Of a DNA stretch of 35,594 bases, positions 30,325 to 33,575 are shown piece by piece. How positions within the stretch are numbered: position 1 is the first letter of the stretch; each line of letters begins with the position of its first letter. The notes beneath the pieces were generated by a model. That model ran no database searches. It was not told where the DNA came from and worked only from the letters and a program-made list of their open reading frames with translations. The stretch spans positions 1 through 35,594 of the forward strand of contig JAKALS010000002.1 in NCBI GenBank assembly GCA_021813145.1. The letters run 5' to 3'. Position numbers and translations under genes: made by a program. Origin of the DNA: a bacterium. Lineage in GTDB: Bacteria; Patescibacteriota; Microgenomatia; Levybacterales; UBA12049.

Positions 30325-30804
30325 ATGACTGAAAAGTTTGCGCCAACAGAAGTAAAAATTTCTACCTGGTCTTATAAACAATCTTTTAGCGATTATTTTA
30401 AGTTAAGAGAAAAAACTAGAGAACTACACACTGACCCGTTAAGAATAGTCGCTTTTGATGCGGAATCGGGGCTTGATTTACCGCGGGAATTAAAAAGATT
30501 CGTCCAAACAAAATTCGGCAATAACGAATTCGCAGCACATACGGCAGTATTCGAAGAAAACGATGTTTATATTATGGGTAATATTATTGCTATATCCAGA
30601 TTATACAGAAGAACAATTCATATCCGCTTTGATGAAGGAAAAGTGTTTTGTGGAATAAGAGGCGGAACAAATTCCCAGGACATGAAAGAAGTTCATAACC
30701 CCCAAATCTTCGAAAAAAGCTTTTCGTTGATGATAGTTACATTGCCAAGGAAGAGAAGCAATCATGTTGTCTATTCAGGTGAACCGGTGCCACTCATAAA
30801 GTGA
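30325..30804 (+). CDS. Hypothetical protein, soluble
   Basis: 159 residues, no signal or membrane segment, alternating strands and helices. Visible stretches include LRIVAFDAESGLDLPRELKR and NDVYIMGNIIAISRLYRRTI. I do not recognise the family. Its TGA overlaps the region where the next gene could start (GTG at 30801), so the two are likely co-transcribed and perhaps translationally coupled. Its TATAAT box lies 8 bases before the start. Confidence 0.65.
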   Translation: MTEKFAPTEVKISTWSYKQSFSDYFKLREKTRELHTDPLRIVAFDAESGLDLPRELKRFVQTKFGNNEFAAHTAVFEENDVYIMGNIIAISRLYRRTIHIRFDEGKVFCGIRGGTNSQDMKEVHNPQIFEKSFSLMIVTLPRKRSNHVVYSGEPVPLIK

Positions 30805-30815
30805 GTTATACTGCT

Positions 30816-31235
30816 ATGAAAAGTAATTTATGGAGTTGCCCAAAATGCAAAAGAGAATTTAGAAGTAAAAACCAGGTTCATTCCTGTGTTTTTTATCCTA
30901 TTGAAAATCATTTTAAAAACAAGCCTTATTCAAAAGAAATTTTTGAAAACTTAAAAAAAGAAATCGAAGTTAATATCGGACCTCTAAAGATAGACTCTCT
31001 CCCCTGCTGTATTCATCTTATAAGTAACTATACCTTCTCCGGAGTATGGGCACTTAAAGATAGGATTAGAATGGATTTTAGGACTACAAGAAAAATAAAA
31101 AGCAAAAGAATACTTAAAAACTATAATCTGTTCTCGAAATACTATATGAATTATACGGAAATAAAAACCAAAAAAGATATAGACAAAGAATTTCTCTCCT
31201 GGATTAAAGAGGCATACTTAGGAACAAATGAGTGA
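30816..31235 (+). CDS. DUF5655 protein with N-terminal zinc finger
   Basis: 139 residues from the ATG at 30816 (MKSNLWSCPKCKREF). A GTG at 30801 is an alternative that would overlap the previous stop by 4 bases. The start has a zinc-binding pattern WSCPKCKREFRSKNQVHSC (C-x2-C then H-x-C), followed by the DUF5655 domain (FKNKPYSKEIFENLKKEIE, YTFSGVWALKDRIRMDFRTT). The family is common in bacteria and its function is not established. It is the second gene of a two-gene unit, and its stop codon overlaps the 3' end of a minus-strand tRNA. Confidence 0.8.
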   Translation: MKSNLWSCPKCKREFRSKNQVHSCVFYPIENHFKNKPYSKEIFENLKKEIEVNIGPLKIDSLPCCIHLISNYTFSGVWALKDRIRMDFRTTRKIKSKRILKNYNLFSKYYMNYTEIKTKKDIDKEFLSWIKEAYLGTNE

Positions 31236-32201: not shown

Positions 32202-32275
32202 GCCGCGTTCGTCTAGTGGCCCAGGACGGGTGGTTTTCAGCCACCAAATCGCGGGTTCGACTCCCGCACGCGGTA
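32202..32275 (+). tRNA. tRNA-Glu(UUC)
   Basis: A 74-base cloverleaf. The acceptor is GCCGCGT with ACGCGGT, the D-region GTCTAGTGGCCCAGGAC is typical of tRNA-Glu, the anticodon arm is GGTGG-TTTTCAG-CCACC with anticodon TTC, and the T-arm is GCGGG-TTCGACT-CCCGC. The discriminator is A and CCA is not encoded. Confidence 0.95.
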
Positions 32276-32290
32276 CATTGTCTTATAGTA

Positions 32291-32791: not shown

Positions 32792-33370
32792 TTATGCTGT
32801 TCTTGGAAGCTGTATCCATTCCCCCGGAACCATTACCGTTTCTTCCAGAAGATCAACTTTCTTTGTCCTTTCCGTTCCATCCGGGTTAATTATCGTTAGG
32901 GTTGCTTCTCCTTTTTTTTTCTTTCTGCTGTTTTCGATTGCATCATCTATTTCGTCGCCGTTCATTGTTCCTTTTTCCGCAAGCGCCGAGGCAACCTCGT
33001 ATATTTCTTCCCTGCTGTTGTTTATGATTGATTTTGCTGTTGCTTTTGCGCTCTCTACATTTCCTAGTATGGCTGCTATTCTTAAATCGTGTCCGGTACC
33101 GCTTAATCCGTCTGCCTCGGGCCCTACTGCTGCAACAATATCACTTCTGTCAGTCTCCGTAGAACCAAGAGTATTTACTCCGTCTCCTCTATTTTCCATA
33201 TTTCTTACTCCGACACCCCTGACTCTTGCCAAATAGCCATGTGTAGCTTCATGAATATCCGTATTGTCCGGTTTTTTGCGTCTTTCAACCCAATCCTTCA
33301 TTACGATTATTCTGTTTCCTTTGTAATTAATTTCTTTGCCTAAACTTACTGATAATTCAGGACCTCTCAT
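32792..33370 (-). CDS. Stand-alone peptidase M41-like (FtsH protease domain) protein
   Basis: 192 residues, no signal peptide or membrane helix and no Walker motifs. DIHEATHGYLAR gives an HExxH zinc site (H40, E41, H44), and GHDLRIAA supplies a candidate third ligand D95, in the place of the NDL Asp of FtsH. The order of elements between and after (GDGVNTLGST, GPEADGLSGTG, ALAEKGTMNGDEIDDAI) follows the FtsH peptidase domain, so I infer an M41 relative cut free from its AAA+ motor. The final 35 residues (EATLTIINPDGTERTKKVDL...) are extra beta-type sequence. It may cleave unfolded or specific substrates without ATP, or be a regulatory pseudo-protease. Its -10 box touches the start codon. The frame continues after the stop. 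Confidence 0.75.
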   Translation of the reverse strand: MRGPELSVSLGKEINYKGNRIIVMKDWVERRKKPDNTDIHEATHGYLARVRGVGVRNMENRGDGVNTLGSTETDRSDIVAAVGPEADGLSGTGHDLRIAAILGNVESAKATAKSIINNSREEIYEVASALAEKGTMNGDEIDDAIENSRKKKKGEATLTIINPDGTERTKKVDLLEETVMVPGEWIQLPRTA

Positions 33371-33376
33371 GGCATT

Positions 33377-33382
33377 ATTTTA
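33377..33382 (-). promoter_or_regulatory. -10 box of the M41-like gene
   Basis: TAAAAT on the minus strand ends 6 bases before the ATG at 33370. A poor ATGGAT sits at the -35 position with a 17-base spacer. Confidence 0.5.
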
Positions 33383-33445
33383 ACACTTAAAAATAGGAAA
33401 TCCATTAATTTTTATTTTGCTATTATTTGATATAAATAATCTCAG

Positions 33446-33480: not shown

Positions 33481-33562
33481 ACCTCAGAAACGTAAGTTTC
33501 AAAAGGCAGGAGATCAGCTTTTTAGTTGATCACCCCGAAAAAGCCCCGTAAGGGGTTTTTTT
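33481..33562 (+). ncRNA. Probable small RNA with three hairpins
   Basis: The transcript predicted from the promoter is about 82 bases and ends in a terminator. Hairpin 1 is GAAAC-GTAA-GTTTC (33487-33500, a GNRA-type loop). Hairpin 2 is an 8-base-pair stem at 33512-33531 (GATCAGCT with AGTTGATC, one G-T pair, loop TTTT). Hairpin 3 is the terminator with a GTAA loop. A purine-rich single strand (AAAAGGCAGGA) lies between hairpins 1 and 2. There is no ORF. It does not match tmRNA, the SRP core or any riboswitch I recognise. An ACCCC at 33532-33536 could compete for the terminator arm GGGGT, so a switch is possible. It fills the 355-base gap between the M41-like gene and the gene at 33726. Confidence 0.6.
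33538..33562. terminator. Rho-independent terminator, usable in both directions
   Basis: GCCCC-GTAA-GGGG stem with A-T extension and a run of seven T on the plus strand. On the minus strand the stem is followed by CTTTTT, so it can also end transcription coming from 33653. Confidence 0.85.
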
Positions 33563-33575
33563 GCGGGCAATTTTA

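Follow-up and report, generated by a model that had tools for sequence, protein, structure and literature searches.

A predicted standalone, compact M41-like zinc peptidase encoded in a Microgenomatia genome

To our knowledge, nearly everything known about M41 peptidases concerns the rear half of a hexamer that is bound to the membrane and driven by a motor. A short gene in a bacterium of the Patescibacteriota (Microgenomatia; Levybacterales; UBA12049) raises the question of whether such a peptidase domain can exist, and work, on its own. The stretch of DNA analyzed here, referred to as the window, comprises positions 1 to 35,594 (35,594 nucleotides) of contig JAKALS010000002.1 in GenBank assembly GCA_021813145.1, a host genome of 954,117 bases in 6 contigs. 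The original prediction for this locus described an M41-like peptidase domain devoid of an AAA+ motor and a membrane anchor, and it offered an ATP-independent protease, the partner of a separate ATPase, or a developmental or defence factor as possible roles.

The gene and its putative active site

The open reading frame at 32792-33370 on the minus strand begins with ATG and encodes 192 amino acids, with HEATH at residues 40-44 and D95 closing the motif GTGHD, exactly as first described. A frame of this length would rarely arise by chance at 39% GC (approximately 0.015 expected in the window under a simple stop-codon model), homologues with open frames exist, and the HExxH and Asp residues are conserved; the frame is thus confirmed as a genuine gene. 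Its principal features are as follows.

32792-33370, minus strand: predicted standalone compact M41-like zinc peptidase, 192 aa (open reading frame, homologues, hhalign and model)
33239-33253, minus strand: HExxH motif HEATH, residues 40-44, with two candidate zinc ligands and the putative catalytic Glu (alignment)
33086-33088, minus strand: D95 in GTGHD, candidate third zinc ligand (alignment and G-x-x-x-D context)
33374-33382, minus strand: -10-like hexamers TAAAAT / AATAAT, with their 3' ends 3-6 bases upstream of the ATG (sequence)

Fourteen standalone members, about 23-40% identical to the window protein, could be aligned. E41, H44 and D95 are invariant in 14/14 of these and H40 in 13/14, despite a mean identity to the window protein of 34% (well-filled columns, 14 members), a pattern showing that the active site of the standalone family is under selection. 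The G-x-x-x-D context around D95 also resembles that of the FtsH M41 domain. Homologues lacking the HExxH residues, which the original prediction held to count against it, are limited to a single case, L006 of genome G034, where YEAEH replaces the motif; the first His alone is lost, and the second His and the Asp are retained. L006 sits at the syntenic place in G034, adjoined by a homologue of the window’s 34478 gene and followed on its other flank by an MscS-like gene (identified by eye). E5 was invariant in only one of two alignments, being variable in the other, and is therefore not relied upon. A candidate N-terminal signature common to the members (M-x-G/S-PE, MxER) likewise proved not to be exclusive to the family.

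The hexamers upstream of the ATG weakly suggest that the gene may have a leaderless transcript of its own. Comparable hexamers precede 16/21 M41-like starts versus 57/134 other ORFs at loci L075-L098 and in the window (control ORFs were counted when a hexamer lay 3-12 bases before the ATG), the latter frequency itself suggesting that leaderless transcription is widespread in the class. A special leaderless promoter for the M41-like gene was rejected, given that other genes of the same loci also carry the box, and because it is so common in these genomes, the box is weak evidence for a separate transcript. The interval separating the M41-like gene from the 33726 gene contains, at 33538-33563, a G+C-rich hairpin followed by a T run, for which no matching Rfam family was found.

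Assignment to the M41 fold

Single-sequence scans of the window protein against Pfam, NCBIfam and PHROGs returned only noise and named no family, as did a single-sequence search of the PDB, so the assignment to M41 rests on profiles and structure. The window protein does not match PF01434, failing to reach its gathering score, and two of the 14 members match it at E up to 0.1 (best 3e-5). A comparison by hhalign of the 14 standalone members with 11 FtsH M41 domains gave a probability of 97.6 and an E of 3.7e-12, with the HExxH motif and the C-terminal VASALAEKGTMNGDEIDDAI region both in register and the alignment extending from HExxH through the C-terminal helices. When the core-family profile was run against all PDB chains, 13 sequences were found at E < 0.01, every one an FtsH or YME1 sequence aligned in the correct register; no other HExxH family gave a better match when one was looked for.

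Predicted structures point the same way. AlphaFold2 models were obtained for the window protein (pLDDT 87.2, pTM 0.70) and for its relative L022 (pLDDT 91.8, pTM 0.80), and both aligned with M41 domains at Z 7.7-12.7. The best M41 rows were 8xks_F for the window model (Z 12.7, rmsd 2.4, 116 residues) and 9a2p for the L022 model (Z 12.2, rmsd 2.6, 115 residues); beyond the M41 domains and the Vibrio cholerae protein 5iqj, the next rows drop to Z 3.2 and 4.0. Foldseek alone was weaker, with a best E of 1.2e-3 for the window model and 1.5e-4 for the L022 model. Taken as a whole, the profile comparisons and models give good support to the standalone family being an M41 (FtsH/YME1) peptidase domain rather than a member of another HExxH family. 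The proposed M41-type domain is upheld by these analyses, as is the placement of D95 at the third-ligand position of FtsH, on which hhalign, the PDB profile search and the models agree, and the FtsH order of motifs is kept (HExxH, LGxT strand, GxxxD, C-terminal helix pair).

The domain is also as bare as originally claimed. A Pfam scan detected no AAA+ ATPase module in the 192-aa window protein, and hydropathy detected no transmembrane stretch (best 19-residue mean 0.92), nor any hydrophobic anchor in the 14 members (best mean 1.50). The M41 core is itself compact, the last residue of HExxH and the third-ligand Asp being 45-54 residues apart in the 14 members versus 71-72 in FtsH domains (10 of 11, the remaining one being missed by the pattern), and it lacks much of the stretch that precedes the C-terminal helices. 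Extensions predicted to form strands are found at both ends of the window protein, and the L022 model has the same layout, with three strands before the core and three after it.

33281-33370, minus strand: N-terminal extension, residues 1-30, with predicted strands at 4-9, 13-16 and 19-25 (AlphaFold2 model)
32795-32914, minus strand: C-terminal extension, residues 153-192, with predicted strands at 153-161, 167-175 and 178-182 (AlphaFold2 model)

Spread, phylogeny and chromosomal location

The window protein belongs to a small, old and divergent family of short proteins in Microgenomatia-type genomes, one that appears to be undescribed. With the window protein alone as query against 100 relatives, matches were obtained in 13 genomes, its own included; 10 of the matches were short proteins of about 190-260 aa and three were FtsH C-termini. 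A profile of nine members matched 71/373 genomes of the class. The core family accounts for 13/373 (E 2e-25 or better; two cut at contig ends), second-tier standalone M41-like proteins for eight of the 71, and short frames for G355 and G275; the remaining 48/71 gave weak matches in longer frames (346 aa or more), as for FtsH. Across 379 genomes of the phylum, strong matches were confined to three genomes, all of the same class. Outside the class, weak matches in this sample fell nearly all in FtsH-kind frames of 340 aa or more, together with one weakly matched 155-aa frame in G646. Named relatives include Candidatus Levybacteria / Levyibacteriota, Daviesbacteria and a Microgenomates group bacterium, and the gene is carried by G053 and G017, which belong to the same taxonomic family as the window. 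Searches of mobile elements were limited tests: viral contigs yielded one pattern stretch and no relative, phage records matched neither the window protein nor L029, and plasmids searched with L029 gave no match.

In a tree of 33 sequences, including the 14 core members, 11 FtsH domains and two second-tier sets, the core members form one side of a branch with support of 100/98, and the FtsH domains occupy a separate branch (100/99). Relative to the core branch, both second-tier sets fall on the same side as FtsH; several branches are long, making fine placement unsure. The first of these sets (L028, L029, L032, L036) and the second (L027, L030, L031, L033) resemble the core family in being standalone and in having HExxH and a G-x-G-x-D-like third-ligand stretch, with hhalign probabilities of 97.7 and 98.2 against it. 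They differ from it in their ends, some are nearer to FtsH, and they lie outside its tree branch. For example, L029 passes the PF01434 cut-off (51.9 bits versus 29.9), and in profile comparisons its group connects FtsH to the core family. The second set possesses a C-terminal CxxC...HxxxC stretch, possibly a second zinc site.

That the gene might be a broken or degenerating remnant of FtsH is scarcely credible: the M41 part is indeed present alone, but the 14 members keep similar lengths, ends and catalytic residues at low identity, they form a branch apart from FtsH, and the FtsH of the same genome is intact.

Which genes occupy the site differs between relatives. In G001, which is of the same genus, conservation of the flanks extends to 32276, where a tRNA-Glu gene ends, and resumes at 33408; the intervening part of G001 consists of approximately 3.2 kb of other genes, with no M41-like gene. 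This absence, together with the patchy distribution in the class, argues against a core housekeeping role.

32202-32276: tRNA-Glu gene, convergent with the M41-like gene at 32792-33370

At 5/14 core-family loci (the window, L081, L082, L083 and L090), a tRNA-Glu gene is followed 0.2-2.1 kb downstream by the M41-like gene in convergent orientation; this arrangement was seen at 0/8 second-tier loci. Because the window and L082, and likewise L081 and L083, probably share their places, the independent cases probably number about three. Integration at tRNA-Glu was considered and rejected, since the tRNA end does not recur at any other position of the window and no repeat involves it; no att-like repeat was found within the window. 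Elsewhere in the window, at 30801-31235, a DUF5655 protein (PF18899) adjoins an unnamed 159-aa gene.

Proposed function and relation to known systems

In our view, the gene product is rather probably a soluble zinc metallopeptidase that consists of a single domain with the M41 fold and operates with no AAA+ motor attached. In such an enzyme, H40, H44 and D95 would bind zinc, E41 would activate water, and the LGxT strand, around G69, would hold the substrate as in FtsH. Since there is no motor to unfold substrates, cutting would take place in the cytoplasm on peptides, unfolded segments or one specific, loosely structured protein. The terminal strands, which stand in place of the motor linker, may together make up a small module that governs substrate choice or oligomeric state. 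Motor-independent (ATP-independent) proteolysis, the first of the roles originally put forward, would be compatible with this reading. The suggested defence factor fared worse, with PADLOC returning 0 families at E up to 0.01, and no supporting evidence was found for a developmental one.

The small M41 domain might instead act as a regulatory or decoy subunit, inserting into or capping the FtsH protease ring of its own cell and altering its activity, with or without catalysis of its own. FtsH is at hand in every core-family carrier checked: the window genome encodes a separate, intact FtsH in a 630-codon frame, and PF01434 was found in 10/10 core-family carriers among 188 relatives (173/188 overall). 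The loss of the first His in L006 would also suit such a subunit, and pseudo-protease FtsHi proteins are known in plants, according to passages of one report (PMC9020784). Against it, the catalytic residues are otherwise invariant, FtsH is near-universal whereas the M41-like gene is rare, and the residues missing from the core (approximately 20 separating HExxH from the third ligand, plus much of the segment ahead of the C-terminal helices) make full FtsH ring contacts unlikely. We regard this role as unlikely.

A site-specific regulator following ImmA/IrrE-like logic, which would cleave a single repressor or precursor protein upon a signal, is improbable. The patchy distribution, the apparently monocistronic gene and terminal strands that, in the models, seem suited to partner binding would all be in keeping with such a role, as would the neighbors found at three loci, where Ni-SOD (PF09055) and an S26/S24-like peptidase adjoin the gene in L076 and L084 and lie near it in L088.

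L076 7624-8418, L084 8733-9439 and L088 8376-9220: Ni-SOD / S26/S24-like peptidase loci, beside the M41-like gene or at most about 2.1 kb away from it

However, no neighboring gene is conserved across the family among the genes listed at core-family loci, which leaves such a regulator with no common partner gene. Ni-SOD is common in these genomes (51/100 relatives), and its co-occurrence with the M41-like gene, in 8/10 carriers versus 43/90 non-carriers, has a p of 0.09 before correction for kinship. Ni-SOD maturation as a general role is likewise weakened, the adjacency being seen in three loci and two carriers having no Ni-SOD.

Quite improbable is a two-component arrangement, like that of ClpP with ClpX, in which the peptidase would be the partner of a separate AAA+ unfoldase, as the original prediction also proposed. 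FtsH M41 domains normally need the motor, and other AAA proteins are available in the window genome (11 PF00004 matches, FtsH included). On the other hand, AAA_lid_3 gave one match per genome in 10/10 carriers, in frames of at least 617 aa on the contig stretch of FtsH; the AAA module of FtsH is thus the sole one of its type in these carriers, which, judged by AAA_lid_3, have no orphan FtsH-type motor. The M41-like gene has no recurrent AAA neighbor, and a Lon-like frame (identified by eye) lies approximately 3-3.6 kb from it only in L081 and L083. A partnership with Clp, Lon or FtsH itself may be envisaged.

To return to the soluble, motor-free peptidase, it is a serious, if tentative, possibility that the family represents an undescribed M41 branch that lost its motor and anchor, shrank its core and gained a substrate-selecting strand module, serving minimal-genome bacteria beside further motor-less M41-like proteins. 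A motor-less M41 family whose active sites are intact would reveal whether the fold works as a protease alone, how substrates are selected when no motor is present, and in what way the architecture of FtsH can be dismantled. The window protein also offers a small, soluble M41 domain for structural work.

Among known systems, the peptidase domain of FtsH, YME1 and AFG3L2 (MEROPS M41, Pfam PF01434) shares with the window protein its predicted fold, HExxH, the Asp of GxxxD, the LGxT strand and the C-terminal helix pair. Unlike these proteins, the window protein has no AAA+ module, lid or membrane part, and compared with FtsH, the core of its family is about 20 residues shorter from HExxH to the Asp and carries additional strands at either end. 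The open-access PMC literature, which leaves out most subscription journals, yielded no paper describing M41 proteins that stand alone in bacteria. A closer parallel is the V. cholerae protein of PDB entry 5iqj (134 aa, function unknown), which is likewise short, standalone and M41-like in fold, and which aligns with the window model at Z 9.5 (rmsd 3.2, 99 residues) and with the L022 model at Z 7.4 (3.5, 94). Its relation in sequence is weak (E 0.71 to a second-tier profile, and absent from the core-profile list), and no paper on it was found in the same open-access literature. Finally, A0A6J5RJ76 of an uncultured Caudovirales phage (214 aa) is, by annotation alone, M41-only like the window protein, with a structural match at E 4.6e-3 and 11% identity. 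Given 5iqj and A0A6J5RJ76, the window family is not the first of its kind, and it adds a further variant to the M41-only proteins already known elsewhere.
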